A DNA stretch of 47,112 bases from a virus, in the IMG/VR virus record IMGVR_UViG_3300025151_000063, positions 1 through 47,112 of that record; one strand, 5' to 3'. Below are positions 234 through 45,268 of the stretch, piece after piece. Numbering within the stretch: position 1 is the stretch's first letter; the number at the start of each line of letters is the position of its first letter. Both the position numbers and the translations under genes were made by a program. The notes under the pieces are model-generated. The model did no database searches and had not been told where the DNA came from. It saw only the letters and a list, made by a program, of their open reading frames with translations.

Positions 234-409
234 AGTCGCTGCTCCGAAGGTGGCGGAGGCGCAAGGAGGAGCCTCCACAGAAAATCGTGATCCGAAGAAA
301 CGACAAGTGGTGCGACGAATGCTCGCGCTTTGTCCAAACGCTTCACCCGGATGAGCGAATCTGCGTTGCCTGTTCAATCGAAAGGAGGAGAACCCGTGGC
401 CTCCGATGA
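230..409 (+). CDS. Small basic zinc-ribbon protein, 59 aa
   Basis: ATG at 230 overlaps the preceding stop as ATGA and the frame runs to TGA at 407-409. The N-terminus is very basic (RRWRRRK) and is followed by two CxxC knuckles, C28-x2-C31 and C45-x2-C48, a classic zinc-ribbon spacing, then another basic tail. A DNA- or RNA-binding role is likely from the charge and the zinc site, but the family is not recognised. Its last 14 nt overlap the GTG start of the nuclease gene, and the strong Shine-Dalgarno of that nuclease lies within it, so the two are probably translated in a coupled way. Confidence 0.6.
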   Translation: MKSLLRRWRRRKEEPPQKIVIRRNDKWCDECSRFVQTLHPDERICVACSIERRRTRGLR

Positions 410-1109
410 GCGCATCCTCTTCATCGACAACCGCGAGCGGTCGGGGCTTGAGGCTCTCGTCATCAAATACTGCGAGAAAAACCGTCTGAAATACCAAGTC
501 AGACAGACTATGCTCACCGACTATTCATTCGGTGCTGTTGGGATCGAAGCCAAGTCCATTCAGGACTACATGGGGAGCCTGTATTCCGGCCATCTTGAGC
601 GACAATTGCAGAACCTCGATGAGAACTACGCGCAGCCCATCCTGCTCGTGCATGGGACATTGGACGATTACGTCGGCAAAGCAAAGCGTAGCGGCAGGAA
701 GGTCCCCTTCGCCCGTGCTTTTGCCTCTTACACGGGTTCTCTCGCCCGCTTCTGCAACGACTTCGACATTTCCATCCTCACGTTCCCGAACAAGTCCACA
801 GCGGCTCGTTTTATCTGCAAGCGTTTCGAGAAACACGGAACTCTTGGGAAGGCATCGACGCTCAGGGTGATGCGGAGGACTCAGACCGAAGACATGAGGC
901 TTGACGTCTTGATCGCGGCAGGATGCTCCGAGCAGATCGCCAAGCGGCTGCTTGACGCGCACGGTTCCGTGGCTGAAATCGGAGGGCTTGACCTGAAGAC
1001 TCTCATGGAGACAGAAGGCGTCGGAAAGGTCCGGGCAAAACGCATCATGGACGCTTTCAACAGCGAGGAAGCGCAAGTGCGCGAGAAGGTCAAGATGACC
1101 CGCGCATGA
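396..1109 (+). CDS. XPF/ERCC4-family structure-specific endonuclease with HhH domain
   Basis: Predicted nuclease for branched or flap DNA in replication or recombination. Start GTG 396 is chosen because an excellent Shine-Dalgarno (aaaggaggag, 381-390) sits just upstream. Residues 5-150 match the ERCC4 nuclease domain: D11 and E14 in IDNRERSG, D42-Y43 in TDYSFG, then E51-A52-K53 and D57 in GIEAKSIQDY. The family signature is ERKxxxD, so the Arg is replaced by Ala here while the metal-binding acids and Lys remain. Residues about 165-235 form a tandem helix-hairpin-helix (ETEGVGKVRAKRIMDAF). The size and lack of a helicase resemble the short XPF of Thermoproteota rather than euryarchaeal Hef. 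Confidence 0.88.
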   Translation: MASDERILFIDNRERSGLEALVIKYCEKNRLKYQVRQTMLTDYSFGAVGIEAKSIQDYMGSLYSGHLERQLQNLDENYAQPILLVHGTLDDYVGKAKRSGRKVPFARAFASYTGSLARFCNDFDISILTFPNKSTAARFICKRFEKHGTLGKASTLRVMRRTQTEDMRLDVLIAAGCSEQIAKRLLDAHGSVAEIGGLDLKTLMETEGVGKVRAKRIMDAFNSEEAQVREKVKMTRA

Positions 1110-2610: not shown

Positions 2611-3295
2611 TGAGAAGCCGTTCTCAGCCCGCGTCTGTGAATGGCGGGATGCCGAAAAGGTCGTTTTCATGTCCCCGTTCTCCTCCAAGGTTCACGAGGG
2701 CGTGCCGGGAGGTTGGCCTCAGATCATCGATGAAGGAGCCCTCGACATTGTGGCTTTGTGGAAAGGTGGCCGTTTCAGGGTCGTGAAGGTGTCTGAGAAA
2801 GTGCCGACGCTGTTCCATAGGAAATACGCCTCCGAAGGAAAACCCGAGGAACTGACGGCCCTCCTGACGGACCCTGAGCAAAAAGTCGTGATGTTCGACG
2901 CCGAGAGGTTCGGTGTTCCGTTGATGGAGAACGCCCTCGGCATCAAGGTCGAGGCTGAGGTCATCGACCTGCTTCGGATGGTCAAGGAGGCTGACGCCGC
3001 TCTCCACGAGGACGCAGGACGCCGCATCCCGCTGCACAAGATCGCAAACGTGAACAGGAAGTCGGCTTCCGTGCCGCTGTTCCAATACCTGCCGATGTGG
3101 AATCTTGAGAGAGCCCGCAATTGGACCATTGGAGGGACGAGGACCGTGGTGTCTTCGCTGACCACCGATCTTGCGCTGATGGTTCAGGCGCTACATGGGA
3201 TGCACATGAGGGGCGGCATTATGGTGCCCTCCCGTGAGAGGAGCGGAGCCATTTTCAAGGCTTTTTCTGATAACGCGCAGGAATCCTGTCCTTGA
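2591..3295 (+). CDS. Possible degenerate DEDD/RNase H-fold exonuclease-like protein
   Basis: ATG 2591 is preceded by gaaggaagga and overlaps the ATPase end by 20 nt; 234 aa. The layout vaguely follows DEDD exonucleases: a strand-rich part with GALDIVALWKGG (motif I position), VVMFDAERFGVPLMEN (motif II position), then VIDLLRMVK and SSLTTDLALMVQAL, resembling the final Asp-bearing helix. The usual DxE of motif I is not clear, so it may be inactive or a different RNase H-like fold. The neighbours (nuclease, ATPase) fit a replication or repair role. Its tail overlaps the convergent methyltransferase gene by 41 nt. Low certainty on function, good certainty that it is coding. Confidence 0.5.
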   Translation: MWLLKSDEKPFSARVCEWRDAEKVVFMSPFSSKVHEGVPGGWPQIIDEGALDIVALWKGGRFRVVKVSEKVPTLFHRKYASEGKPEELTALLTDPEQKVVMFDAERFGVPLMENALGIKVEAEVIDLLRMVKEADAALHEDAGRRIPLHKIANVNRKSASVPLFQYLPMWNLERARNWTIGGTRTVVSSLTTDLALMVQALHGMHMRGGIMVPSRERSGAIFKAFSDNAQESCP

Positions 3296-4724
3296 TCCCT
3301 TCCATTCTCGCGGCAGCGATAGCCGCGTTCAGGATTTCGGCTTGCCTGTTCGGATTGACCGAATGCTGCAAACCGGGAACGTCCATTCTCGATGTCGGCA
3401 TACCGTGGTGACGTTCAAGGGCCGTGATGAAATCGAGTCCGAGGCTGTAAGGGATGACCGAACGGACGTGCTTTCCGCTCAATTTAGGAGAGCCGGGGTA
3501 AATCTGACCTGCCGGAACGGGCTTCATTGCTTGAACGCCCTTCTTTGACCCTCCGGGGGCTGGGATGTATAGCACGTCTCTTGCACCAACGATGGGGTTA
3601 TCCTTTGTGGGTTCCAATTTTGGCCGTGGAACAAAGGTTTCGGGCATAACGCCGAACAGGTCGGTGGGTTTCAAACCGGGTAATCCTTCCAATTGTTTGA
3701 AATCAGGATTTTTGGGAAGGCCGAACAAAGCGCGGTTTGCAGGTTCGCGGTATGAAGCCATGTCGATTTCCAACCGGGGGTAAGGCTGAATCTCAGATTG
3801 GAAGCGCATTTTTGCACGAGGATTCTCAATCAGGAAGTGAGGCATTCCCATCGCTACGAGATCGTCAATCATCCCCGTCGTGTGAGAGAGTAAGGCCTTA
3901 TTGTTGAGGACCGCCGCTCGTTGTTTTCTCGCGTTCTTTTCTGAAACAGGCCTGTTTCTGCTGATTTTCGGCAAACCTTCACGGGCACCTGATTGGTAAT
4001 ACATCATCTCCTCAACGGTTTTTGGGATGTGAACGTCAATGCCGAGATACGGGTCATCTTCCTCACTTTGTCGCCTCAACCACTCAGGTTTCAAGGACTG
4101 CCATGCTAACTGATTCTTGAACTCAATGTCGTCCATATTTCGCGCATACCACCTCGGCGGTGTTCCGGGTTTTCCAGCCTCTATCCAAGCGTCCCTTCGC
4201 CTCTCCTCATTCAACCGTTTTTCCTCAATTTCAGCGGAGGTGATAGCGCCGATTTCAGACACCCTTTCCGGGTTGATTTGATCAAGCAATTCAAGGACCG
4301 CATCGTTTGTTTTCCATCCCATGCCGCCACCAAGCATGGAGTATTTCGTGCATGGGACTGAGGCAACCATCGCGTCAGGAACTCGGCCGTCGAACGCATC
4401 CACCACATCGTCCGCAGTCATGCCGAGGACGTCTCGGGTGTGATAGTTCCCGCCGGGGTTGATGTTCAACGTGGGCTCCAATTCCCACATTTGGACGTTA
4501 TGTCCCCGCTCCTTTGCAGCGCCGCCCCAACCGCCGATTCCCAAGCGGTCGAAAATCACCCCTTCGGGTGTTGTGCCTTGACCTTGGCCCATGAAGTCGC
4601 TTCCGCCGAGCCCCGCGAACAGTTCAGCGATGTCGAGTCGGTCCTGCTTGGACAGGGAGTCCCATTCGACCTCTTCAGATAGCAGGGCCTTCATCAGGCT
4701 CCACGCTTGATCGAAGGCCGTCAT
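3255..4724 (-). CDS. C5-type DNA cytosine methyltransferase with N-terminal AFxxAWxxLK tag
   Basis: Start ATG 4724 follows gaggtgagagg. Motif I is LFAGLGG (residues 35-41, SAM binding), the catalytic Cys is in VPCTKYSMLG near 123, and an ENP motif (FLIENPRAKMR) lies near 300, followed by a KPTDLFG segment typical of phage ENP-type cytosine methylases. Cys and ENP are about 175 residues apart, far more than the roughly 40-50 usual in M.HhaI-like enzymes, so there is a large charged insert. Residues 1-12 (MTAFDQAWSLMK) precede the enzyme domain and match the helix shared by neighbouring small proteins. It probably protects viral DNA against host restriction. No partner restriction enzyme is present. 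Confidence 0.8.
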   Translation of the reverse strand: MTAFDQAWSLMKALLSEEVEWDSLSKQDRLDIAELFAGLGGSDFMGQGQGTTPEGVIFDRLGIGGWGGAAKERGHNVQMWELEPTLNINPGGNYHTRDVLGMTADDVVDAFDGRVPDAMVASVPCTKYSMLGGGMGWKTNDAVLELLDQINPERVSEIGAITSAEIEEKRLNEERRRDAWIEAGKPGTPPRWYARNMDDIEFKNQLAWQSLKPEWLRRQSEEDDPYLGIDVHIPKTVEEMMYYQSGAREGLPKISRNRPVSEKNARKQRAAVLNNKALLSHTTGMIDDLVAMGMPHFLIENPRAKMRFQSEIQPYPRLEIDMASYREPANRALFGLPKNPDFKQLEGLPGLKPTDLFGVMPETFVPRPKLEPTKDNPIVGARDVLYIPAPGGSKKGVQAMKPVPAGQIYPGSPKLSGKHVRSVIPYSLGLDFITALERHHGMPTSRMDVPGLQHSVNPNRQAEILNAAIAAARMEGIKDRIPARYQKKP

Positions 4725-4728
4725 CCTC

Positions 4729-5193
4729 TCACCTCTTCGTTGAGAACCTCGAACCACCCGCGCCCAATTGACGGCGCATGGCGGGCCTGACGGTGCCCCT
4801 GCTCTTGTTTCGCGCATATCGCTTTCGCGTCCTGCCGCGCTTGACCTTCCGTGACTGTGCCCACGCCTTGTTCGCCGCCTGACGGTAGGGCCGTGTGCTG
4901 ATCGTGGATTGCGTGTATCCGTGGAACTTGCCTTTGACGAGAGCGTCCCACGCCATCTCGAAAGCATCCTCAGACTTCAGATGACCATAACCGTGCTGTG
5001 ACCATTCGACGCCGAAATTGGAGGCTTCGTCCTCCTCCTTCAGCCTTTTCTGCTTCTCTCTCAAGCGTCTTTCAGTCTCGTCGTTCCGCTCTCGCATCTC
5101 ACGCGCTTCTCGGTCGGCACGGGACTCAGGAGGCTTCTCGACGGGGAGGGGCGAATTGATGCCGACCTCTTGGAGGTATTTCCTCAGGTCCAT
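4729..5193 (-). CDS. Basic coiled-coil protein with internal AFxxAWxxLK tag, 154 aa
   Basis: Start ATG 5193 shares one base with the stop of the upstream zinc-ribbon gene (TGATG); an apparent longer reading from 5253 would run through that gene. Residues 20-57 are a highly charged coiled coil, 73-88 are the tag (KSEDAFEMAWDALVKG) and 89-154 are strongly basic (RKVKRGRTRKRYARNK). If cut at the Lys-Ser and Lys-Gly flanking the tag, the product would release a free basic DNA-binding peptide of about 66 residues. The family is not recognised. A DNA-condensing internal head protein is the working idea, from charge and context only. Confidence 0.65.
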   Translation of the reverse strand: MDLRKYLQEVGINSPLPVEKPPESRADREAREMRERNDETERRLREKQKRLKEEDEASNFGVEWSQHGYGHLKSEDAFEMAWDALVKGKFHGYTQSTISTRPYRQAANKAWAQSRKVKRGRTRKRYARNKSRGTVRPAMRRQLGAGGSRFSTKR

Positions 5194-5369
5194 CACATCA
5201 CCAACCTCGGGCGCACGCCCTTCCACAATGAATCGCACACGGGGCATTCCCATAAGAATACACGGTCGCGGGAGCCTGCATAGAAACCATTGATCCGAAC
5301 GGCCAAAACGGGCTTATCACAGCCGGGGCAGTTCTGCTCAACCTTGTCTCTATACCTGCGGTCCATCAT
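5193..5369 (-). CDS. Zinc-ribbon protein, 58 aa
   Basis: Short gene bounded by an ATGA overlap with the structural gene upstream (start 5369) and a TGATG overlap with the basic protein downstream. C14-x2-C17 (CPGCDKPV) and C42-x2-C45 (WECPVCDSLW) with about 25 residues between them make a standard zinc ribbon of rubredoxin-like type. The two knuckles, the coupled junctions on both sides and the absence of any other good reading here support it as a real gene. Function unknown; it is similar in design to the other zinc-ribbon mini-proteins of this genome. Confidence 0.7.
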   Translation of the reverse strand: MMDRRYRDKVEQNCPGCDKPVLAVRINGFYAGSRDRVFLWECPVCDSLWKGVRPRLVM

Positions 5370-6529
5370 TGATGCCCCGCGTGGGTGTAGGTGATTTCCA
5401 AGAAGTTCACATGAGGTCCTGCGCTCCCACCGTATGTCGTTGCGATGTCCGTCACGGAAATGTTTGAACCTCCGACGGTGTAGTCTGTTCCTTGGATCAA
5501 CCTGATGTGATGTGTCGTTCCCGCCACGTTCTGATACGCATGAATGTCGATCAGGAACTTGCTAACGTCATCTTCAGACTCCAATGGCTTGAACATGATG
5601 CCGCCGGGTGGAGGGGACCCGTAATTGATGGTTGCCGGACCTGCGGAATAGGCAATCACCGCTTTGCTGACTCGATGAATCGGAGTCACCTGATAGACGC
5701 CGCCGCCGCCCGTGGTTCGGTCAAGCCCTGTATCCGATTGGAAGAAGAGGTGAGTTTGATTTGCTCCTTGAACGTGGCCTCCGTGGAAACCATTGGGGTC
5801 ACGGGCGAACAGGAAACCAACGTCGGTGATGGGCAAGTTTCCGGCGTTGAAACCGGCGATGTGGTCATTACGGGGGTTGGAATGGCTACCGTCTGAGTGA
5901 ATGAGCGAAGTCAGGGGCATTGGCCCGGCACGGACGAAAGCCCGCTTATCTTCGACTCCCTCGACGGTGGAAGTGCTTGCTCCTTTGCCCATGCGAAGAG
6001 CAGCGAGAACAACAGACTGTTGGTTGAGATGAGCCGAGGGGGCTGAGGGATACAGGCCGGAGCCGGTGTCCACGAATGAACCGTAAATCAAGCCAATGTT
6101 GTTCGGCTTGGACGGGTCGATATAGACGAGCATGATGGCTTCTTCATTCGCACCTGAAGGGTTCGAGATCGCCGTTGATGAGTGGGTGCTGTCGAGGTTG
6201 GCCGTGTTGGTTCCGACGTTGTAGGTCGTTTGGGCCACGGTGTAAAACATCCCATCCAACACCACGGTCCCTCCTTGCACCGTGATTGACGAGGTGGAAC
6301 CGAGTGTTCCGCTCGGCGCAACCGCACAGTTTCCTGCCGTGGGGTCATTGCGTGCGGTGTCGCTGTATTTGTTCAGCGTGATCGGCAGAACGCCGTTGAA
6401 GAGACTGCGTTCCACGAAGTTCGTAAGAGTGGGGGATGTGAGGACATCGGTGTCTCGGAGCCCATCCGATTGATAGGTGACTCCTGTGGCCGTTTTGAGG
6501 TGGCCTTCTGCAAGGTTGGTATTCGCCAT
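5366..6529 (-). CDS. Virion structural protein, probably baseplate or tail-fibre related
   Basis: A 387-aa Ser/Thr/Gly/Asn-rich, low-charge protein with a probable mainly beta structure. The first about 190 residues (FVERSLFNGVLP, TVQGGTVVLDGMFYTV, VYIDPSKPNN) resemble the N-terminal part of baseplate or fibre proteins that organise a repeated beta unit; the C-terminal half ends with a beta-rich domain (FLIDIHAYQNVAG, NFLEITYTHAG). ATG 6529 lies 4 nt after the stop of the preceding Cys-rich gene. It is separated from the other tail-tip genes by the accessory cassette, so it may be an exchangeable receptor-binding part. The family is not named with confidence. Confidence 0.6.
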   Translation of the reverse strand: MANTNLAEGHLKTATGVTYQSDGLRDTDVLTSPTLTNFVERSLFNGVLPITLNKYSDTARNDPTAGNCAVAPSGTLGSTSSITVQGGTVVLDGMFYTVAQTTYNVGTNTANLDSTHSSTAISNPSGANEEAIMLVYIDPSKPNNIGLIYGSFVDTGSGLYPSAPSAHLNQQSVVLAALRMGKGASTSTVEGVEDKRAFVRAGPMPLTSLIHSDGSHSNPRNDHIAGFNAGNLPITDVGFLFARDPNGFHGGHVQGANQTHLFFQSDTGLDRTTGGGGVYQVTPIHRVSKAVIAYSAGPATINYGSPPPGGIMFKPLESEDDVSKFLIDIHAYQNVAGTTHHIRLIQGTDYTVGGSNISVTDIATTYGGSAGPHVNFLEITYTHAGHQ

Positions 6530-6533
6530 TTAA

Positions 6534-6722
6534 TCACCGACTTTTCAAGACGTTCCAAGCGACCTGAAAAGCCTCGGGTTCTGACTTCTTGACCTTCTTC
6601 TTCCTCTCGATTTCTGCATAACAAGGACATAGAGGGGGTTTAGCCGAACACTTCGTAATGCCCTTTTTCATGCAAATGCAGGGGTTCTTCTTTGTCGCTC
6701 CGCAACAACAGCCATCTTTCAT
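6534..6722 (-). CDS. Cys/Lys-rich mini-protein with C-terminal AFxxAWxxLK tag, 62 aa
   Basis: Start ATG 6722 overlaps the preceding stop by one base (TGATG); the longer apparent reading from 6788 runs back through that gene. The first 37 residues hold eight Cys (GCCCGATKKNPCICMKK, KCSAKPPLCPCY), then a basic linker (ERKKKVKK) and the tag SEPEAFQVAWNVLKSR at the very C-terminus. Metal binding is likely. The tag at the C-terminus, preceded by Lys-Lys-Ser, mirrors the arrangement inside the 154-aa and 233-aa proteins. Family not recognised. Confidence 0.65.
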   Translation of the reverse strand: MKDGCCCGATKKNPCICMKKGITKCSAKPPLCPCYAEIERKKKVKKSEPEAFQVAWNVLKSR

Positions 6723-6865
6723 CAGGAAGACCTCCCGTGGCCCTCCCAATCGGGACAGCAATCTGAACAGCGGCCACACTTGGCGCAATGCTGTTCCTTA
6801 GCCTGATCACAGCGCGAGCATGGCTCCTGCTTCAAAACATCCCATGCGTGTTCAAACGGGTTCAA
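6722..6865 (-). CDS. Cys-rich mini-protein with N-terminal AFxxAWxxLK-like tag, 47 aa
   Basis: TTG 6865 overlaps the stop of the DUF5872-type gene as TTGA and follows gaggtgg; TTG 6868 and GTG 6874 are in-frame alternatives. The protein starts LNPFEHAWDVLKQEP, a variant of the shared tag, and continues with CSRCDQAKEQHCAKCGRCSD and CC, that is seven Cys in about 25 residues, enough for one zinc site and possibly a second. It is a very short gene, but the coupled junctions on both sides, the tag and the Cys spacing make it credible. Confidence 0.6.
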   Translation of the reverse strand: MNPFEHAWDVLKQEPCSRCDQAKEQHCAKCGRCSDCCPDWEGHGRSS

Positions 6866-7482
6866 CAATTCCACCTCTTCAATGCAGCACCTTTCGGCGT
6901 AAGTTTTCCACCCTTGCTCGTCGGCCCCTTGACGCCGCTCATGCGGGCGCAGAACGACTTGCGGCGCTTTGCCTTTTTCGATCCGGGCTTCAGCGAGGAT
7001 GGTTTCTCGGTGACGGGGGGCTTGAGGTTTGCACCTTCCTTGCGCTTTGCAGCGGCACGACCCTTAGCGTTCAGGCCGCCTTTGCGGCTGTGCTTGTTTG
7101 GGTTATAGCCGTGGAATGGCTTGTCCTTTCCCTTGGTGAGCATGGCCTTTGCGAGAAGCCCGCAAGTATCACAATCACAGGCGAATGACGTGCTTTTGAC
7201 CATCGTTGGCTTCCCTCCGACTCCCTGCGCTTTTGACCTCTTCCGGCGGGTTGCCGCCTTCTTGTCCTTTTGACTCATGCCCCTGCTCGTTTTAGGGGTG
7301 TCGGAGGACACCTTCTTCGATGGACGGCACTTTGGATAGCCCCGAGAGGACGTGTCGGCCTCAGAACGGCCACAGGGCGGGTGCTTGCCGTCCTTGTCTT
7401 TGCGGCTGACGTCCACCCACTTCTCCTTGAACCACCGACGCAGATCCTTCGTCAGAAGGGGTTGAATCTGCACGTCGCTCAT
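6862..7482 (-). CDS. DUF5872-type basic Cys-containing protein
   Basis: A 206-aa protein rich in Lys, Arg and Gly. Residues about 19-50 (EKWVDVSRKDKDGKHPPCGR and GYPKCRPS) match the DUF5872-type module known from large DNA viruses and some phages; a CDCDTC knuckle lies near residue 100; and the C-terminus (RRKSFCARMSGVKGPTSKGG...LKRWNC) is a second conserved module often seen with it. A virion-associated DNA-binding role is likely from charge and family distribution. The start, ATG 7482, lies 122 nt inside the end of the HMG-CoA lyase-like gene. It is followed by a TTGA-coupled Cys-rich mini-gene. Confidence 0.78.
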   Translation of the reverse strand: MSDVQIQPLLTKDLRRWFKEKWVDVSRKDKDGKHPPCGRSEADTSSRGYPKCRPSKKVSSDTPKTSRGMSQKDKKAATRRKRSKAQGVGGKPTMVKSTSFACDCDTCGLLAKAMLTKGKDKPFHGYNPNKHSRKGGLNAKGRAAAKRKEGANLKPPVTEKPSSLKPGSKKAKRRKSFCARMSGVKGPTSKGGKLTPKGAALKRWNC

Positions 7483-8302
7483 TTGAGAGGCCCCGGATTG
7501 ATTTAGCGATGTCGCTTGCTCGCTTAAGGTGTTCTAAATCGATGCCGGTTTCAAAGCCCCACGCATGGAGGTGCCGCACGAGGGTTTCGGTTGAGAGGTT
7601 CGCGCCGCTCCCAATCGCAAATGGACAGCCACCGAGGCCTCCAATGCTTGAGTCGAACTCCTTGATTCCGTGGAGCAGACCTGCTCGGACGAGGGACAAT
7701 GCCCTGCTTTCATCGCCCCTGTGGTGAAGGTGCAGCGCAGGCTTGATTCCCGCATCGAGGGCCATTTCTGCCCACTTCCTGACCTCTCCTGCGGTCCCTA
7801 CGCCGACGGTATCTGCAAAGACCACCGTATCCCCAAGCATCTTCGCATCTCGGATCAGGGACTTCATGTTCCTGTCCTCCACCTGTCCCGAATACGGGGA
7901 ACCGAAGGACATGGAGACATAGACGCGCACGTTCTCTCTCGGATAGCCGTTCAACACTTGGAACAACGAATGCACGACCTCGCTGTTCGTTCGCCTCAGG
8001 TTCTTCAGCGAGAACTGTTCACAGGCCGAGAGAACCACATTGACCTTGCTCACACCCGCAGCCATAGCCCGGTCGAAACCTCGTTGATTCATCACCAAGG
8101 CAGACCCACGCCCGGAGAAAACATCCTCAGCGTCCTTCATCTGCGGCATGATACGGGGGTGAGCGAAGGACACCTCCTCGATTTGCTCGACACCTGCCGA
8201 ATACAGCGCGTCGATCAGGTCACGCTTTGTGCCCGTGTCCACGAATGGCTCAATGGCTTGAATGCCGTCGCGGGGTCCGACTTCAAAGACTTGGACCCTC
8301 AC
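7361..8302 (-). CDS. HMG-CoA lyase-like enzyme (auxiliary metabolic gene)
   Basis: Predicted TIM-barrel lyase of the HMGL/DRE-TIM family, which splits 3-hydroxy-3-methylglutaryl-CoA into acetyl-CoA and acetoacetate. Visible signatures: VGPRDGIQ at 8-15 (catalytic Arg-Asp), SFAHPRIMPQM, VYVSMSFGSPYSG, FADTVGVG, the HxH metal ligands in ALHLHHRG, and the catalytic-loop Cys in GLGGCPFAIGSGAN followed by TETLVRHL and TGIDLEHL. In human HMGL the second His is followed by Asp; here it is His. The core ends near residue 275; the last about 40 residues are low-complexity and overlap the next gene out of frame. Start is GTG 8302 with weak Shine-Dalgarno but a TATA-like box 24-28 nt upstream. Confidence 0.85.
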   Translation of the reverse strand: MRVQVFEVGPRDGIQAIEPFVDTGTKRDLIDALYSAGVEQIEEVSFAHPRIMPQMKDAEDVFSGRGSALVMNQRGFDRAMAAGVSKVNVVLSACEQFSLKNLRRTNSEVVHSLFQVLNGYPRENVRVYVSMSFGSPYSGQVEDRNMKSLIRDAKMLGDTVVFADTVGVGTAGEVRKWAEMALDAGIKPALHLHHRGDESRALSLVRAGLLHGIKEFDSSIGGLGGCPFAIGSGANLSTETLVRHLHAWGFETGIDLEHLKRASDIAKSIRGLSNERRADSTPSDEGSASVVQGEVGGRQPQRQGRQAPALWPF

Positions 8303-8324
8303 AGTCCGAAGAGGCGTGGTGTGG

Positions 8325-8330
8325 ATTTAA
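8325..8330 (-). promoter_or_regulatory. TATA-like box upstream of the HMG-CoA lyase-like gene
   Basis: Minus strand TTAAAT in the 40-nt gap between the 233-aa gene and the lyase start; the centre is about 25 nt before GTG 8302, which itself has weak Shine-Dalgarno. This could give a leaderless transcript for the lyase. Tentative. Confidence 0.3.
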
Positions 8331-8342
8331 CACCTGCGGCAT

Positions 8343-9044
8343 TCAAGCGTTCTCTTCGAGGTATTGGTCGTAGTAGTCCATGAAGCCGTCAGCGACTTCT
8401 TCGTAATCAATGTCGTTCATGGAATCAACCGAACCGTCGTAGTCAGGCCTCGAAAGTTCTTCAGCCAATCCCTCGTTTCGCATAAGAGCGTAAGGAATGA
8501 TGTCCTGAGCGAGCATGGCGTGGACCTCCTCTCGGCTCATCCCACTTTGAACGGCACTTTCGATGCCTCCAATGACTTGACGATAAAGCCCCTCGTCGTT
8601 GTGAGCCCACAGTTCAGCACTCCGAGTCGCGGTGGCGACGTCCTTCAAAATGCCCCATGCTTTTTCCACGGGGTCGGACTTCTTCACCTTCTTGCTCTTC
8701 TTTTTCCATCCGCCGCCCTTCGATTTATACCACTTCGCGGCCCAACCGTTTGCGTAGGCTGATGGATAGACCTTGAACTTGGATCGGGCTTTGGACTTGG
8801 CCTGTGACCACAGGCCGGGGTTGGTCGGGACGTTGTCGCCCTTCTCAACCGATTTTGAAAGTCCGAACTCGTCTTTGAAACGCTTCACCGCTTCTTCCTT
8901 CGTGTAGCCTGAGTATCTTCGACGCTTCCTGTCGTTTCCAATAATGGCTGAAACTTCAATCGTTTCGTTTCCAACGGACACGCTTACGTCGTCGTCGCTT
9001 TTCATCAGTTCCCAAGCAGCGTGAAAAGCGTCGTCTGTCCTCAA
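8343..9044 (-). CDS. Basic protein with two AFxxAWxxLK tags, 233 aa
   Basis: Start TTG 9044 overlaps the preceding stop as TTGA. Domains in order: tag 1 at 1-16 (RTDDAFHAAWELMKS), a beta-rich part at 18-60, a basic module at 75-115 (KFKVYPSAYANGWAAKWYKS) also seen in other marine viral proteins, a Lys run, tag 2 at 121-136 (KKSDPVEKAWGILKD), and an acidic helical C-terminus. Having one tag at the N-terminus and one exactly between the basic and acidic parts suggests a two-part precursor. Family function unknown; DNA binding by the central basic module is likely. Confidence 0.7.
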   Translation of the reverse strand: MRTDDAFHAAWELMKSDDDVSVSVGNETIEVSAIIGNDRKRRRYSGYTKEEAVKRFKDEFGLSKSVEKGDNVPTNPGLWSQAKSKARSKFKVYPSAYANGWAAKWYKSKGGGWKKKSKKVKKSDPVEKAWGILKDVATATRSAELWAHNDEGLYRQVIGGIESAVQSGMSREEVHAMLAQDIIPYALMRNEGLAEELSRPDYDGSVDSMNDIDYEEVADGFMDYYDQYLEENA

Positions 9045-9277
9045 ATGTAATCCCTCATTTTGTCTTTCTCGTAATCTGAAAATCCGTAAGGGTCGTGAAC
9101 CACTCTTCCGCTCCCGTCCACAAGTGCTGATTCAACGTGTTCCATCGGGTCGTAGCAATCATCACAAATGATCATGTTTCCGTCCAAATCGATGAAATCG
9201 TCGGTTTCCTTACCGCAGATTTCGCAGTAGTAAGGGTCGCTTTTGAGAAGCGCCCAAGCGATGTCGAAAGCGGTCAA
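9041..9277 (-). CDS. Zinc-ribbon protein with N-terminal AFxxAWxxLK tag, 78 aa
   Basis: Start TTG 9277 overlaps the stop upstream as TTGA; the stop at 9041 overlaps the next TTG the same way. Residues 1-14 are the tag (TAFDIAWALLKSD), and 17-42 hold a zinc ribbon (YCEICGKE ... IICDDCYD, C-x2-C twice). The rest is acidic. Compared with the methyltransferase N-terminus (TAFDQAWSLMKA) the tag differs at few positions although the attached domains are unrelated, which is what marks it as a movable module. No family recognised. Confidence 0.7.
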   Translation of the reverse strand: MTAFDIAWALLKSDPYYCEICGKETDDFIDLDGNMIICDDCYDPMEHVESALVDGSGRVVHDPYGFSDYEKDKMRDYI

Positions 9278-9873
9278 TCAATCACCCGGAAGTAGTTCAT
9301 ATAATCGTCAATATCGATTTCACCCGATGCGACACGTTCGATGAAGCCCGGAAACTGCCTCTCCAAGGCGTAAATGACCATCTGCTTCGCATCTTCAATC
9401 GTGCTTTCGTCTCCAATCGACGTATCCTGCATCACTTGGGAAGGACTGTTAGGTGGGTAGTCGGGGACCGTTCGACTTTGCACGGAGTAGTGGCCGATAG
9501 GCGCTCCTCCATAGAACTCCATTTCATCTTCGATGAGCGCCCTATCCTCCTTTGGCGAAATCCCGAGAAAATTCACTTCAAACTCCCCCATTTCACCCCC
9601 TTCTGCGAAGTCCGGTGATGCCCCTGCGGCGAAGGGAACGGTTTCGTGGGTCCCCCCGCGAATACCAAAGATTCCACCGCCGATTAGGTCGTGTGGCCCC
9701 TTGACCTGATATGGGACGCGAATCGTCCTTTGACCGTGGATTTTGGGAAAGAGGGCGTCTCCGAAAGCCCTGATTCGCTCGTGTTGCCAAGTCGGATACC
9801 CTGTTCCGTCCCGTCCTGACGCATCTTCCGAGGCCTTTAGGACGGCCCACCCTGAATCGAAAGCGGACATCAT
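9274..9873 (-). CDS. Uncharacterised protein with N-terminal AFxxAWxxLK tag, 199 aa
   Basis: Start ATG 9873 lies in an ATGATG with an ATGA overlap onto the previous gene. Residues 1-16 are the tag (MMSAFDSGWAVLKASE). The body (about 20-199) is a mixed alpha/beta protein with GTGYPTWQHERIRAFGD, a Gly-rich stretch (DLIGGGIFGIRGG) and an acidic C-terminal helix. No known family is recognised and no catalytic motif is obvious. It is the first gene after the tail-tip block and the first of the tagged series. Confidence 0.62.
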   Translation of the reverse strand: MMSAFDSGWAVLKASEDASGRDGTGYPTWQHERIRAFGDALFPKIHGQRTIRVPYQVKGPHDLIGGGIFGIRGGTHETVPFAAGASPDFAEGGEMGEFEVNFLGISPKEDRALIEDEMEFYGGAPIGHYSVQSRTVPDYPPNSPSQVMQDTSIGDESTIEDAKQMVIYALERQFPGFIERVASGEIDIDDYMNYFRVID

Positions 9874-13200: not shown

Positions 13201-16200
13201 TGCGACTCAGGTAGGACTCGACTGACTCTCGCTCCGTGGTGGTCAAGGCGCGGTCATACATGATGACCTCAGCGATTTTGCCGTTCAAGAAAAGTGAAGA
13301 GGGGACCACGCCAAGATTGAGAGGACCTGCTGTGGATTTCCAAAATGCCCCGGTATCGGTGTCCAATTGAGTTCCGTCCTTACGGAGGTCAAGTGTAGCA
13401 GTTCCTCCGGAACCGTTGCCTCCGGTCACGGCAAAAGACACGAGCGCCGCTTCGCCGGGGACAACGGAGTTCGCTCCACCCAAAGACTGAGTCCAACCCG
13501 TGTTTGACCCAACCCAAAACTCCCATTGGTTGTCTGTCGCCATGTCCGCATACAGATTGAAACCCGCCCGAGTGACGGGGGTGCTTGACCGACTCTCAAT
13601 GATGCCGTGGAAATTGCCGTCGTCCACGTCCACTTCGCAGATCATAAAAACCGTCATTTCTGTGGGGTTGAGGACGCTGCTGAATGCAGTCTCCAAAGAA
13701 TCGTTCCCGTCGCAGTCCACAGCGGGCCGGTTGTTCATGCTTGCCTGATGCTTGATCAGGGAAGGCTGTGCAGAAGCGGACGATTGCGTGAACTCGAACG
13801 CATTGTCTGACCTGTCTGTCCAAGAAGTGACCGCCGCGCCGTTGGCTAAATCGAGGTCGCCCGCATCAAGCCACAGAACCGGCGAGGTCACGGGCAAAGC
13901 GGTGGGCCGTGTATCGACGTATTCGACGTCCCACGCTCCGGAAGCAAGTGCTGTCGGAGAGGTCAGACCATTCTCCATGACCTTCAGACGGCGACCAATA
14001 CCGATGCGGTCGAACTCGGACGGGGGGTCGTTGGACAGGCGTAGCGTCGAGTGATAGGGCGTTGCCTCCGCCGTGTGGCCGGACATGACGAAACCGACAG
14101 GGTGACTTCGCTCGATCCCCTCGTAGGCGTTCGGCATCATCCAATCTGCGCCAAAGTCGGTAGCGTCGGGCATCAGCGCCATAGAATCGTGAATGCCGCC
14201 ATCGAATCGTCCGCTCTTCAACACCTTTTGCTGATTGGTGGTGTTTTCCGTAGGGTCGCCTGCGAGCATATCGAGGGCGCTCGACGTGGACCGCGCCCCC
14301 CAACCACGAACAGGAAGCCGACGAGATACGTTGGTGGCGACCATTGGGCTCTCCACATAGAAAAATCGGGTGAATGGGGAACTGTCTGTGGCGTCTGTGT
14401 CCACAGTCACGCGAGCCCCGTCATGCTCGGGGTCGATGGCGTCACCGATTCCTTCTGCTCGTGAATACCGAACGGGTCCGCTCGTGGCTCGGATCAGTCG
14501 AGCGGTGCCCTGAGCCTCACGGACGGTGGAATGACCCATGAGGACTGCTCCCGCTGCCCTGAGCCCCTCGGCGCTCCCATGACCTCCTGCATTCAGCCCG
14601 TTGTATCCGTAGTTCTGCAACCATTGGATTGCGAGCAATCGCTCGAACACGTCACTTGAGAGGTTCTCCAAAAGCAACGCACGGACTGAACGTGCGGTCG
14701 ATGCTTTGGGCATTCCCATCTGACGATAGCGGAAGGTCAGGTAATGCTCACGGGATGTGCCGAACAAAGCGGGGTGACTGTATTCCGCAAGCCATGTGCA
14801 TAGGAAAGCATCGGGATAGGCTCCGGTGTTTGTATCCCTGTTGTCGAAAGCGCCGAGGTTTCGATTTGACGTCGTGGATTGAGTCCAAGCGGAGGACGAA
14901 GCAAGAAAAAGACGCGCATCCATCATGTTCATCGCTTCAGGGTCATGATGAGCAAGTGGCGGAACCGTTGCGAGTTCAGTCCCCGGCTTGGGGACAAAGA
15001 CTCCTTCTTCGAGCCCACGGACGAAGTAGTTCTCACTACCTGATTTTGTGATCGTTGGGGGTTCAGGTCGGCCACCAAACATCACCGGCTGATCGAGGAA
15101 GAAGCCATTCACCATGAACTCGGACCCTACATCGTCCCGGTTGCTGAATGAGAGTGCCGTGCTGAGGGTCAAATGAGTGGAGGTGGCGGTCCCGCTGATT
15201 GTGGTTGTCGAGACGCTCGCTTTGGAAACTGATTGGGAAGCGCCCTCAACAGCGGTATGAACCTGTCCGGGGGCGATGACGTATTCAGCGTCTTGATTGG
15301 CCGCACCGCTACCTGAACGCCGTTGGTCATTCTGTCTCGCTCCTGTGATTTCCTCCGCTGCGAGGTTGTCCGCAGCAAAGGCTCCCGTTGCTTCATCATA
15401 GCCCGACTCACCTTTGACGTCCAACGTATCGAGATAGAGCGCCGTCGTGGTGTTTGAGGGGTCGGGGGACGAGAAACCAAAGTGACGGTGTTCGCTTTCT
15501 GCCTCCATCATCAGGGAATATGACGAACCAAATGAGCGGTGCAATTGACGGCGCAGGTGCATTGGAGTCCCACGATGCCCAACGGGCGTCACAAACGAGT
15601 GACCCTGACGACCAAAACGGATGCGGTGGTGTGGGTATGGGTGCCCTGTCGCTGTGCCGTTGTTTGTCTGCGTCAGAACAGACCCGCGTTCAGCGTGGTC
15701 GCTGATCCTATGAGCCGTGAAGAAGCGAGTCGTTCCGCTCGGCACCGCACCTGCGGTAATATCGCTTGACGTCTTCACGAGGGAAAGGCTTGGGTGCAGC
15801 ATTCGCGTGCAATGAAACACCAACATTCGGTCATGCGTATCGAAGTCTTTGCTCGTATCATCATGGATGCTAAGACCGCCCATTCCCCACGACTTGTCCG
15901 CCCAAGCCTGAACCCGGTCGTGTGCCGAACGGACGAAGATGTCGCCGGGGATTTCCTCGGGCGCAGGCAATTGGATGGAAAGGTTCGGAGTTTGATTCCC
16001 GAAGGTATCTGACGGGCCGATAACCTCCTCGCCCGTCGATTCATCGGTTCGAGCATTCTCAATGACGAAATCCTTGATCACAGTCCCGAAGGGAGAGCCC
16101 CCTTCAAGAATGAGTTCGTTTCCTTGGTCATCGACAACCGGAAGAGGGTCGAACACGCGATGCTCATTGGAGATGGTTAAGCCTCGGACCCGTTCGGAAT

Positions 16201-35161: not shown

Positions 35162-36319
35162 TCAGGCGGTGATGTCGCGCACCTTGCCGTGTGCCCCATA
35201 GAAGAGTTGCCAAAGGTCGCCCATCGTGTGGAACAGACCCATCTGACCCAAGCGGTTGATGCCGAAGGGGTCGCCCGTCTCAATGCCCGACTCGTGGTAA
35301 AGCGTTGGCTTGGCGGTGCAGAAGTAAATGTAGTCCGTGTCCACGAAATACATTCGGCTCATTGCGCCACCGGACTCGTCATCGACGTCCTTGGACGGGA
35401 TGATCGGAATGCCGTTGTAGGTCGCCACGATGAACCCGGCTTCAACACCGGGGACACCCTTGACGCCGTTCACGCCGGGGACAACGCGCTTCATCTCGGT
35501 GAAACGCTGTTGTGGTTGGAGGAGGGCCTGCATCTTTTCGAGCGTGTCGTAGCCCGTCAGAATGACCTTGGGCTGACCACCGCGCTCCCAAATGGAGCGG
35601 AACATTCCGTCAATGATGTTCAGCGTCAGCGAGCGGTTGGCGGCGGAGGCCCCGGCATCGACGTTGGAGTCATACCATTGGCGCGTGCTGCCCGTGGACC
35701 GGGTGATGCTGTATTGGTTGTGGTCAGCGATGCTGTCCACGAAGGAAGAGGCAGTCTCCACGAAGGCCGAGGAGGTCGCACGGTCGATGGACTCGAATCC
35801 GTTGCCTGCAACGGTGTCCACGTCTTCGAGGAGCATTCGGTTGATGTGTTCCGCGTGGTGCTTCGCCATTTCCATCTTGATCACAGCGCGAGCGTCACCG
35901 AGGCCGTCGTCCTTGTCCGCAAGGAACATGGCCGTCTCGGAGAGGTCGAAGGTGTGAGCCACAGTCTTCGGCTTGGTGCTGACCTGCTCGAAGGAGGGCT
36001 TGGTCGTCTCGGGGAGGGTGCCGTTCTCAGGCAAGCCGCCGCCCTTGGTGAACGAGGGCTTGTCCGTGACGACACGCCATCCGCTCTTCTCCCAAGGCTT
36101 CTTGGGGAGGATTGAGAAGGCGTTGAACTCTTGGTTGAGTTGGCTCCACACCTTTCGGCCAAAGATGGCCTGATAGGTGCCTGCCGTGCTGCTGACGAGG
36201 GGCGAATCAGCCTTCAGCAGATCGGTTCCGCTGTAAGCCCATGCGTTCGCTCCCGCGCCTGCGCCGTAAAAGAGGCGCTCCATGTCTTCGATTGTCCTGA
36301 TGTATCCGGTGCTTCCCAT
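35162..36319 (-). CDS. Major capsid protein, HK97 fold
   Basis: A 385-aa protein with HK97-fold features: an N-terminal leader region, then FGRKVWSQLNQEFNAFSILP and KKPWEKSGWRVVTDKPSFTK (N-arm and E-loop region), a long spine-like helix (GDARAVIKMEMAKHHAEHIN), the P- and A-domain strands (PKVILTGYDTLEKMQALL, YNGIPIIPSKDV, RMYFVDTDYIYFCTAKPTLY) and a C-terminal helix. Located right after the protease/scaffold gene, as in HK97. Residues 33-38 (DLLKAD) hold a Lys36-Ala37 pair that could be the maturation cut. Start ATG 36319 has AGGACGTGAAG upstream. Confidence 0.85.
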   Translation of the reverse strand: MGSTGYIRTIEDMERLFYGAGAGANAWAYSGTDLLKADSPLVSSTAGTYQAIFGRKVWSQLNQEFNAFSILPKKPWEKSGWRVVTDKPSFTKGGGLPENGTLPETTKPSFEQVSTKPKTVAHTFDLSETAMFLADKDDGLGDARAVIKMEMAKHHAEHINRMLLEDVDTVAGNGFESIDRATSSAFVETASSFVDSIADHNQYSITRSTGSTRQWYDSNVDAGASAANRSLTLNIIDGMFRSIWERGGQPKVILTGYDTLEKMQALLQPQQRFTEMKRVVPGVNGVKGVPGVEAGFIVATYNGIPIIPSKDVDDESGGAMSRMYFVDTDYIYFCTAKPTLYHESGIETGDPFGINRLGQMGLFHTMGDLWQLFYGAHGKVRDITA

Positions 36320-36342: not shown

Positions 36343-37155
36343 TCACTCTCCACGCAGCGCACGACGCGCGAGGGCTTCAGTAGCCTTCCATGCGTCGAGG
36401 CCGGTGCCCATGTCCGCGAACTCCTCGTTCGATGGGACGCGCACGCTCGACTGCGTAGGGGAGGGGGTGGCGGACTTTTGGAGGTCCGAGTTTTCCATGC
36501 GGAGGGAGGCGATCTCGCTGCGGAGGGCCTCAATCTGACCGCCGAAGTCGTTCTGCTTGCGGAGGGCGAGCGCCTGCTCCGTCTCAGCGGAGTAGCGAGA
36601 CTCCCATTCCTTCTGAACCATGCCCTTGAGGGCCTGCTCGTCACGGATGGCCGCGTAGGCGCGGTAGCCGCGCTCCATCGACTCGGGGGTGAGGTCGTCG
36701 GCCTTCACGACATTTTGGTTGCCGGAGGGGCCCTTCATCCGCATCGGGGCCACGCCGGGTCCCTTGATGACGTTTTGATTGCCGCTTGGGGCGGGGAGGG
36801 CGGGGTAGGTGGGCTCAGTCGCGCCTTCACCGGAGCCGATCTCATCGCCTTGGCCGCGGTGGCTGTATCCACCGGAGCCCTCTTGGAGGTAGGCCTTCTC
36901 AAGGCCGAAGTGACCACGGAGGGCGTCAAGGTTGACTCCCGCTTCGTGAGCGAACTTCTCCAAGGTGTCGATGTAAGCGAGAGCGGAGTCTTCGGACTTC
37001 TTCGCCATTTCCTCTTCTTCCGCGTCTTCCATGTAAGCACCCTTTTCGTCCTTCATGGCCTTGTCGTCGGCCTTGGAGATGTCCGCGGAGCCGAGATGGC
37101 TCAGGACACGGGTAAGGCCCTCTTTGATTTCAGTCAGCGTTTCTGCGTTGCTCAT
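36343..37155 (-). CDS. Nested scaffolding protein from an internal start, about 270 aa
   Basis: Within the protease/scaffold gene an in-frame ATG at 37155 (MSNAETLTEIKEGLTRVLSH) is preceded by GAGGG with 7 nt spacing, a good Shine-Dalgarno. This is exactly where the protease domain ends. The product would be the acidic scaffold alone, like lambda Nu3 within C. The internal start is visible in the sequence; use in the cell is inferred by analogy. Confidence 0.5.
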   Translation of the reverse strand: MSNAETLTEIKEGLTRVLSHLGSADISKADDKAMKDEKGAYMEDAEEEEMAKKSEDSALAYIDTLEKFAHEAGVNLDALRGHFGLEKAYLQEGSGGYSHRGQGDEIGSGEGATEPTYPALPAPSGNQNVIKGPGVAPMRMKGPSGNQNVVKADDLTPESMERGYRAYAAIRDEQALKGMVQKEWESRYSAETEQALALRKQNDFGGQIEALRSEIASLRMENSDLQKSATPSPTQSSVRVPSNEEFADMGTGLDAWKATEALARRALRGE

Positions 37156-37710
37156 GTTCAGTCCCTCATTGTCTGTTGGGTTCTCCATCTTCAAGATCGT
37201 GTAGCCTGCTTCAGGGTTAATGCCCTTCTTGCACAGCGTAATCTCGTGGAGTTCAAGGTCGGTGATTTCCCGGTGGGTGCCCCACTCGGGGGTGGTCTTG
37301 GTGACGCGGAAGAGCGCCTGACCACCAATGGAGAAGGCCCGCAGGTCGCCATCACGAATCTGCTTCTGCACCTCACGGGCCTTTTGGATGTCGTCGCGGA
37401 TACGGCAGACGACGAAGAGGCCGTGGTTGTCCACTTCGGACTTCCAAACTCGCCCCTGCGAATCGGCGTAGGTGTCCACCACTTCGCCCACTTGAATGCC
37501 GCTGTGGGCGAGTTGGACGTTGCGGAAGGCCTTGTTCGCCATGAACTTCCCGAAGGCCTTCTTCAGGGCACTCGCAGGGATGCGGTCGCCTTGCTTGTCC
37601 ACCATGTCCACGGACGCATAGCCCGCAACGAAAAGGTCCCCGGAGTCGGCAGCCTTTAGGATGAAATCAGACCCGACAGCGGAGAATCCCGCCATTGCCG
37701 CGTCCGTCAT
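36343..37710 (-). CDS. Prohead protease fused to scaffold, 455 aa
   Basis: Start ATG 37710. Residues about 16-175 form a prohead protease of the S78/HK97 type: H69 (LAHSG), S127 (FSIGG) and an acidic residue in the LELHEITL strand (E153/E156), which together match the His-Ser-acid arrangement. After residue 186 comes a long acidic, helical scaffold (MSNAETLTEI ... LRSEIASLRMENSDLQK), including a short repeat PSGNQNVxK twice. Lys-Ala/Ser sites occur at K19, within ISKADD, VVKADD and LQKSAT, so self-processing is plausible. A TATA-like box lies about 28 nt upstream of the start. The capsid gene follows. Confidence 0.82.
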   Translation of the reverse strand: MTDAAMAGFSAVGSDFILKAADSGDLFVAGYASVDMVDKQGDRIPASALKKAFGKFMANKAFRNVQLAHSGIQVGEVVDTYADSQGRVWKSEVDNHGLFVVCRIRDDIQKAREVQKQIRDGDLRAFSIGGQALFRVTKTTPEWGTHREITDLELHEITLCKKGINPEAGYTILKMENPTDNEGLNMSNAETLTEIKEGLTRVLSHLGSADISKADDKAMKDEKGAYMEDAEEEEMAKKSEDSALAYIDTLEKFAHEAGVNLDALRGHFGLEKAYLQEGSGGYSHRGQGDEIGSGEGATEPTYPALPAPSGNQNVIKGPGVAPMRMKGPSGNQNVVKADDLTPESMERGYRAYAAIRDEQALKGMVQKEWESRYSAETEQALALRKQNDFGGQIEALRSEIASLRMENSDLQKSATPSPTQSSVRVPSNEEFADMGTGLDAWKATEALARRALRGE

Positions 37711-37734
37711 GTTTTGGATGATTCCGTGTAATGG

Positions 37735-37751
37735 TATATGAAGAGTTTCGG
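37735..37751 (-). promoter_or_regulatory. Archaeal-type promoter candidate (BRE plus TATA) before the protease gene
   Basis: In the roughly 50-nt gap upstream of the protease gene the minus strand reads CCGAAACTCTTCATATACC. The CGAAA resembles a BRE and CATATA a TATA box. The TATA centre is about 28 nt before ATG 37710, which would place the transcription start at or near the start codon, as in leaderless archaeal mRNAs. Single-site evidence, so tentative. Confidence 0.4.
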
Positions 37752-37759
37752 TTCGCCAA

Positions 37760-38005
37760 TTAGCACGAACACAGCGGTTCCTCGGGCATAACACCGCCGC
37801 AGTCTTCGCATTCTTCGAGCAATTGCTGTCTCGCCATGTCCATGATGCCCGAATAGCACCATACGCATAGGTTCAATTCAATGATGCCGATGAAACCAAT
37901 GGTCCCGCCTTCAGCATCAACGTCCACTTCAGAACCGCAAACCGAGCATTCAGGCAACGCGCTGCTCGGCTTCGCTTCGGTTTGCTTGCTCGACTTCTTG
38001 CTCAT
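37760..38005 (-). CDS. Cys-rich zinc protein, 81 aa
   Basis: Start ATG 38005 (MSKKSSKQTEAK) with GAGG upstream; a longer in-frame reading would lie inside the preceding gene, with which it already overlaps by 56 nt. CSVCG, LCVWCYSG, CEDCG and a terminal CSC give at least eight Cys for two zinc sites. It lies between the 1119-aa protein and the protease. Family unknown. Confidence 0.6.
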   Translation of the reverse strand: MSKKSSKQTEAKPSSALPECSVCGSEVDVDAEGGTIGFIGIIELNLCVWCYSGIMDMARQQLLEECEDCGGVMPEEPLCSC

Positions 38006-43495: not shown

Positions 43496-45268
43496 TTAAG
43501 AACTCTCCCCCTCGGATAGTCCGAGACGCCGAAGAGTCGCGTCCACCTTGCGGTTTGCCGCTTCAACAGCGGGAGAGTCCATGCTACGCTTGTCTGTTTT
43601 CTTGCCGCCGGTAGGGTCGCCCTCATTGCGACGGACCATCTGTGGAGACTGACCGGCGCTGCGCTTTCCGTCTGTGTTGTCGCTTACGGTCCGGAGAGGA
43701 GGCAAGTCAGTTCCGCTTACAGCGGCGAGAGAATCAGGAAGCGGCATGGACCCTCGACTTTGGCGGAGGTCCCGCTCGCTCTTTTGCATTGGAGCGCCCC
43801 CGCCTCCCTGTGCCTGCTGTTGGGCGGCTGCGGCTTGCTGCTGTTGAGCCATAATCTCCTCCTCCGAGGGCTGTCGGTAGTCGAAGTGCAACACCGTGTC
43901 GTCCACACGGTCGCGCAGGTTCGCCTCAAAGCCCGCCTGCTTCATCTGAATCATGTTGCGAATCGCCATCTCATCACGCCTCATGTGCATGATTTCGTCT
44001 TCCTCCTCGTGCGGGGTCAAGGTGAGTTCCCATTCATCAACATCGAAAGCACCCAACAGTTGCGGGAAGCACACGCGGTTGAACACAGATTGAGCCATAG
44101 CGATAGAACGATTGCTGACGACGATCTGCATTCCCTCGTTGTTCAAGCCACCACCGCTGACGTCATTCATGAACACGTTCGACACACCGTAAAACGCGCT
44201 GATACGTTGCCGGATATCGTCCTTCATGGGGATGTATTGGAGTTCTTCCAAAGTGTCCATCATGCGAACGTATTCGATACCGCCACGCCCGGACTCCGTT
44301 TCAACGCCAATGGTGGGAATGTAGTTCGGGTCACGCTCAAGGTGTTCCTGAATGTTGCGGGCCGTGCGCTCGACCGTCTCCATGTTTGACGACTTGATGA
44401 CCATGACGCCACGCGGCATACGCTTCTTTTGGTAGGCCGAATAGACGTAATTGTCCATTGCGATCAGGGTATTGACCTGACGCCACATGGTCGCTACGGG
44501 AGAACGGCCATACAGTTTGGAAGGCGACCACTTGCTGAGATGAATGACTTCACCGTCGGTATAGACCTGACCCTTGCCGACACCTGCGAGGTTCATGTAG
44601 TGAATCGGGACAACAGCCATGCCGGTTTTCGGGCACTTTGCATCTTTGTCCGAAGTTCGGAACGAGCGGTCCACGAGGCTCGTGTATTGCGAACCGCCGC
44701 GCACACCGCGCTTGTCCGCGAGGATTCGCATGAAGATAGGGTCCGCACGGCTAATCTCCTTGATTCGGAAGAACGCGGGCTTCTGAGTCTTGGGGTCGAT
44801 GTAGTATTCCTTGGTCAGGACAATGTAGGCGTCGTCCACAATGTCGAGGTCCATTTCGATTTCACGGAGGATTTCGATGAAGTCTTGCCCCATCCCGTTG
44901 CGAGCATTGAGGAGTTCGTCGGCATATTCAATTTGTCCGCGGTCGGCCTTCCTCGTTTCTCCTCCACAGGATAAGCATTGGTCCACCTGTTGCTGATATT
45001 CGTCGTCACACTCAATGCACTTCGACACGAACTTAGGCTTCCACCCCCATCCCTTTCGGAACGTCTCGACGTTTAGGTGGTTCAGGATCGAACGAAGCAC
45101 GAGGCACTCATACGCCGCCGCATAAAGGGCGGGGATGGTGATTCCCTGAAGAAGGGCGGGCTCTTGAATACCCGACTGAAACAGGGGCATGGTGGGCATA
45201 GGCGTCGAATGACGCTCCATGTCCATTCCAAGAGAGGAAAAGAGACGCTCAATTCGACGCTTCGCCAT
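43496..45268 (-). CDS. Portal protein with zinc-knuckle insertion
   Basis: A 590-aa protein matching portal patterns: wing/stem segments such as EVIHLSKWSPSKLYGRSPVA, LIAMDNYVYSAYQKKRMPRG, DDIRQRISAFYGVSNVFMND and SNRSIAMAQSVFNRVCFPQL. ATG 45268 follows GGAGGCG and overlaps the upstream stop by 20 nt. Residues 84-101 contain C84-x2-C87 and C98-x2-C101 (SKCIECDDE, QCLSCGGE), an inserted zinc site that most portals lack. The C-terminal about 100 residues are Gln/Ala/Gly-rich with an MQKSERD site near 495. It would form the 12-subunit DNA gate of the head. Confidence 0.85.
   Translation of the reverse strand: MAKRRIERLFSSLGMDMERHSTPMPTMPLFQSGIQEPALLQGITIPALYAAAYECLVLRSILNHLNVETFRKGWGWKPKFVSKCIECDDEYQQQVDQCLSCGGETRKADRGQIEYADELLNARNGMGQDFIEILREIEMDLDIVDDAYIVLTKEYYIDPKTQKPAFFRIKEISRADPIFMRILADKRGVRGGSQYTSLVDRSFRTSDKDAKCPKTGMAVVPIHYMNLAGVGKGQVYTDGEVIHLSKWSPSKLYGRSPVATMWRQVNTLIAMDNYVYSAYQKKRMPRGVMVIKSSNMETVERTARNIQEHLERDPNYIPTIGVETESGRGGIEYVRMMDTLEELQYIPMKDDIRQRISAFYGVSNVFMNDVSGGGLNNEGMQIVVSNRSIAMAQSVFNRVCFPQLLGAFDVDEWELTLTPHEEEDEIMHMRRDEMAIRNMIQMKQAGFEANLRDRVDDTVLHFDYRQPSEEEIMAQQQQAAAAQQQAQGGGGAPMQKSERDLRQSRGSMPLPDSLAAVSGTDLPPLRTVSDNTDGKRSAGQSPQMVRRNEGDPTGGKKTDKRSMDSPAVEAANRKVDATLRRLGLSEGESS

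Follow-up and report, generated by a model that had tools for sequence, protein, structure and literature searches.

Why should a group of neighbouring viral genes, whose products are otherwise unrelated, encode the same short peptide? The question is raised by a 47 kb viral record (IMG/VR IMGVR_UViG_3300025151_000063), which we analysed over its whole length of 47,112 nucleotides and refer to as the window. Its minus strand carries the terminase end, the portal, an S78-type prohead protease, the major capsid protein and genes for the tail, arranged in the order expected of a head-tailed virus. A sequence-only reading had pointed to a short helix shared by seven adjacent accessory genes on this strand and had likened it to the capsid targeting sequence (CTS) of phage T4. 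We built a profile solely from the tags of other viruses and ran it on all open reading frames (ORFs) of the window. The seven named genes were the seven best matches, scoring 25.5 to 8.4 bits, with six genes at 12 bits or above and the seventh at 8.4. By comparison, 100 shuffles of all window ORFs gave, summed, 8 hits of at least 8 bits, 3 of at least 10 bits and 1 of at least 12 bits. Because shuffled proteins so rarely score as high, the seven matches lie far above chance.

All seven tags are encoded on the minus strand, at the places where the helix had been reported. The DNA methyltransferase gene (3255-4724; PHROG 363, E 2e-7) has MTAFDQAWSLMK at 4689..4724 (22.5 bits), which is N-terminal if translation starts at the internal ATG at 4724 and not at the start of the 570-aa ORF; no close relatives of this methyltransferase were found in viral contigs. 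The 174/154-aa protein (gene 4729-5253) bears an internal copy, DAFEMAWDALVK at 4933..4968 (8.4 bits), with one extra residue before the Lys compared with the consensus. Two cysteine-rich proteins follow: one of 84 aa (gene 6534-6788) with a C-terminal AFQVAWNVLK at 6543..6572 (12.2 bits), whose relative in another virus (G024, cluster C22) has the tag internally, and one of 47/50 aa (gene 6722-6874) with an N-terminal NPFEHAWDVLK at 6830..6862 (16.1 bits). The 233-aa protein (gene 8343-9044), with a DUF5872-like tail, carries DAFHAAWELMK near its N terminus at 9000..9032 (12.2 bits); the second, internal copy that had been proposed for it, DPVEKAWGILK at 8643..8675, has no Phe, reaches 6.6 bits and is doubtful. 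A 78-aa zinc-ribbon-like protein (gene 9041-9277) begins at a TTG, the start codon of several tagged genes of the window, with MTAFDIAWALLK at 9242..9277 (25.5 bits), and the 199-aa protein (gene 9274-9873) has an N-terminal MSAFDSGWAVLK at 9835..9870 (17.3 bits).

The tagged genes lie in one region but are not strictly adjacent, as four untagged genes are interspersed: a 58-aa ORF (5193-5369), a 387-aa ORF (5366-6529), a 206-aa DUF6321 protein (6862-7482) and an HMGL-like gene (7361-8302). The HMGL-like enzyme (minus strand; Pfam PF00682, E 8e-24) is possibly a metabolic gene carried by the virus. The protein at 6862-7482 (minus strand), which combines DUF5872 with DUF6321, lacks the tag here, whereas it bears the tag in relatives such as G024 (cluster C11); basic segments of the KPFHGYNPNKHS type, which it contains, are found in many relatives.

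The observation is larger than first reported. In 16 related records plus the window, a profile containing some of the sequences on which it was run gave 171 hits of at least 10 bits, whereas reversed proteins yielded 2 and shuffled proteins 0. The tag has the 12-residue consensus M-T-A-F-[DE]-x-A-W-x-[LIV]-[VLM]-K. Among 109 representatives with unrelated tails, F4 and W8 are invariant and M1 and K12 are conserved in more than 90%; Ala directly precedes the Trp in 88% and K12 reaches 95% conservation. The peptide is predicted to fold as a short helix presenting F4, A7/W8, the hydrophobic pair and K12. Of the 179 tagged ORFs in this set of 16 relatives and the window, 171 have the tag at the N terminus and the remaining 8 have it internally or at the C terminus; a few proteins have two copies. 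The description of the tag as movable thus applies only to a minority of the proteins.

In a search of 38 related records at a threshold of E 1, at which the weakest matches are unsure, the tag was present in 37 of them, with up to 19 matches per record. It is retained in a deeply branching lineage, with about 61% identity in the capsid protein and about 36% in the protease, so that the helix is conserved in deeply diverged relatives and passes the conservation check set with the sequence-only reading; a still more distant record (G066) has it as well. When MTAFDxAW..K was turned into a DNA pattern, it matched 87 viral stretches, with recognisable relatives of these viruses in nearly all cases, and gave zero matches in bacterial and archaeal genomes totalling 257 Gb. 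The tag was absent from the 47 kb of HVTV-1 that were searched. From these distributions the tag is, as judged by its sequence, a trait of the whole virus group. A literature search that covered the magrovirus papers in part found no description of such a tag.

To which viruses does this trait belong? The major capsid protein of the window (35162..36319, minus strand; PHROG 24667, E 3e-51) has 33% identity to gp120 of the haloarchaeal virus HVTV-1; a comparison of the capsid protein with solved structures, aimed at locating its mature N terminus, gave no match. Relatives of the window virus are 93-108 kb long, and replication-type genes lie on the strand opposite to the head and tail genes. 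An XPF/ERCC4-type nuclease with a helix-hairpin-helix is encoded near the switch of transcription direction in the window (330-1109, plus strand). Magrovirales, viruses of the marine archaea Poseidoniales, have a Druskaviridae-related capsid protein, a 90-110 kb genome and morphogenetic and replication genes running in opposite directions (PMC12999244). Compared with this published description rather than with a named magrovirus genome, the group of the window virus would match Magrovirales, and the hosts of the tag-bearing viruses are probably ocean archaea.

The tagged genes keep company with the head genes. They share the strand of the capsid gene in 176 of 179 cases. In seven background records, the head/tail strand holds 87 of the 90 tagged ORFs, compared with 68% of the ORFs of 100 aa or more overall (binomial p about 2e-11, with neighbours treated as independent though they are not). 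From the strand, we infer that the tagged genes are transcribed late. They occupy three regions: they form a cluster that lies upstream of the terminase at a distance of about 15-26 kb, they are found at sites inside the head block between the portal and a conserved 1119-aa protein, and, as in the window, they stand at the end of the tail block. The 1119-aa protein (37950-41309 in the window, minus strand) has no PHROG or Pfam match and sits between the portal and the protease in all relatives examined; it is a candidate internal scaffold or docking partner. In the head block of HVTV-1 (L242), a repeated segment, RVYVDSPDEAPEGVQVQQG...GGxWY, occurs in both gp115 (13623-17564, annotated as a zeta toxin) and gp116 (17557-18018); it may be a further shared domain that connects an enzyme with the head.

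What the tag is attached to varies widely, as the sequence-only reading had noticed within the window. Grouping the tagged ORFs, about 179 in number, by their remaining sequence gives about 95 clusters, a figure that overcounts the truly unrelated families because distant relatives are split into separate clusters. Recognisable tails, part of them assigned by weak matches, include D12-type and other DNA methyltransferases, ParB-like, GNAT, ASCH and HNH domains, zinc ribbons, DUF6321 and DUF5872, and HExxH motifs were seen by eye in several clusters. The profile of one cluster of 12 members (C1) matches Tpt1/KptA (E 4e-5) and, more weakly, DarT (E 0.007), and KptA was also the first of its fold hits (E 0.002, with low TM-scores), which suggests an ADP-ribosyltransferase-like protein. 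A kinase-like fold considered for cluster C4 was dropped, as the PDB sequence match was not meaningful and the model had a pLDDT of 46; cluster C0 had no match in the PDB. The tag behaves as a module, because some tails have homologues without it, for example the DUF6321 protein of the window. By analogy, such cargo types as methyltransferases and ADP-ribosyltransferase-like proteins resemble known injected phage proteins.

The most informative of the tag-bearing families is homologous to the end of the portal protein. Portals of 575-615 aa in these viruses end in a Q/G/A/P-rich linker followed by a basic tail of about 90 aa. The window portal is of this long type (590 aa; 43496..45268, minus strand; PHROG 18178, E 4e-58) and retains the basic C-terminal tail (about 43499-43768) that is elsewhere a separate tagged gene. 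Short portals of 493-559 aa were found in 13 viruses. In 13 of 13, the missing tail is encoded by a tagged gene that lies downstream at a distance of up to about 1 kb (E 1e-9 to 1e-19 with a profile and BLAST identities of 30-51%). A tagged gene at that site was found in none of the 45 long-portal records, the window among them; some records in this comparison are near-copies of one another. A tree of the portal core requires at least two independent changes, since one short-portal virus (L036) groups among viruses with intact portals and away from the other 12, which form the main group. The C-termini of known portals face the capsid interior. As the tail is normally tethered covalently, a head-bound segment bears the tag each time it becomes a separate protein. 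Resting on only two independent events, this evidence is strong without being conclusive, and the coincidence is the less decisive because many late genes are tagged anyway. In two viruses the tether has other contents: in L029 a zinc-ribbon-like stretch, of a type otherwise found on tagged proteins, is fused instead of the usual tail, and in L044 another unrelated stretch replaces it, as if the portal tether were itself a swappable cargo site.

Taken together, the detached portal tail that carries the tag, the late and head context of the tagged genes, the unrelated cargoes and the conserved peptide lead us to propose that the tag is probably a cargo-loading signal for the procapsid interior, working like the capsid targeting sequences of T4 and P1. 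Late in infection, the tag would dock newly made accessory proteins on an inner component of the assembling head, for which the portal, an internal scaffold or the capsid shell are candidates. The tagged proteins would then be packaged in the head and would presumably enter the next archaeal host along with the DNA, where their domains, among them methyltransferases, ADP-ribosyltransferase-like proteins and zinc ribbons, could serve to protect the genome or to reprogram the cell. In this scheme we deduce docking, packaging and ejection as well as the roles as effectors. For the wider statement, that throughout an order of archaeal head-tailed viruses one peptide code loads 10-18 effector-like proteins per genome into each head and has replaced a covalent portal tether at least twice, we see the balance as only slightly favourable.

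Unrelated cargoes, a late strand and effector-like domains would be accounted for equally well if the tag served to dock proteins onto a hub of the host or the virus in the producing cell, such as an assembly site, the transcription or proteolysis machinery or the envelope, and the proteins were not packaged. We consider this quite unlikely, as it gives no account of tagged genes inside the head block, nor of a head component, the portal tail, being tagged when detached in at least two independent splits. A still simpler explanation would need no function of the peptide at all: the shared 5' ends could reflect recombination or a gene-start cassette spreading among neighbours. Tags are indeed mostly N-terminal, and in some genomes, such as G026, the tag DNA is nearly identical between copies. 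Synonymous codons of the shared residues, however, agree within genomes at 49%, near the 42% expected from codon usage, which indicates some local copying of tag DNA with constraint mostly at the protein level. Together with the existence of internal and C-terminal tags and the retention of the peptide across deep divergence, this makes the cassette explanation highly improbable, and selection appears to act mostly on the peptide rather than on the DNA.

The T4 parallel drawn by the sequence-only reading also implied proteolysis, and here its two parts fared differently. Its core, a cargo tag, gains indirect support from the conservation, the head context and the split portal; for cutting by the prohead protease, no common site was found after K12 or in the portal tether. 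That the tag is additionally cut after K12 inside the head, as in T4, is a proposal to which we give little credence. The window encodes the S78 protease (36343..37794, minus strand; Pfam PF04586, E 1e-8), which is also present in relatives, K12 is 95% conserved as given above, and an invariant LLK-ADSP lies near the N terminus of the capsid protein, of which KAD also occurs in HVTV-1. The residues after K12 nevertheless vary, with M-P and A-P frequent among them, and no fixed site is seen in the portal tether, which has QK-SD in some viruses and QT-SD in others. The segment FILK-A at the N terminus of the protease presumably corresponds to the first strand of other S78 proteases. For these last two reasons we set aside the idea that the tag is a cut site shared with the protease N terminus (FILK-A) and the capsid protein (LLK-ADSP).

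If loading of cargo into the procapsid is indeed its function, the tag would name, by sequence alone, most of the proteins injected by these ocean viruses into uncultured hosts, and dozens of unannotated genes would become a testable set of candidates for acting against the host or against restriction. The tag would also provide a short peptide for loading foreign proteins into the head of an archaeal virus, and the comparison of split and intact portals would be a rare natural experiment on the tethering of cargo inside a capsid.

Among known systems, the internal head proteins of T4 offer a close parallel in that a short N-terminal peptide directs different proteins in a virus with a prohead protease. 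T4 cargo includes an ADP-ribosyltransferase, Alt. The tag described here differs by its virus lineage and sequence, by many more cargo families and by being sometimes internal or C-terminal; moreover, the T4 peptide is cut by the prohead protease, whereas the present tag is known from sequences, and its likeness to the T4 and P1 signals is one of analogy. Cargo-loading peptides of encapsulins likewise recruit unrelated enzymes into a shell of the HK97 fold and are usually C-terminal. Encapsulins are cellular compartments with mostly C-terminal peptides, whereas here the container would be a virion and the peptides are mostly N-terminal; this likeness, too, is drawn as an analogy. The targeting sequence of P1 DarB is not known to be cut. 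The P1 Dar anti-restriction system shares with the tagged proteins an N-terminal signal, which in DarB, with about 30 residues or fewer, is sufficient to direct a reporter into the head, and the character of a multi-protein injected system, but the Dar proteins have no common consensus (PMC9024508), whereas one consensus is found here on 10-18 proteins per genome. A further comparison is provided by these viruses themselves, in which the same type of tail is either fused to the portal by a covalent tether or made separately with what would be a docking peptide.
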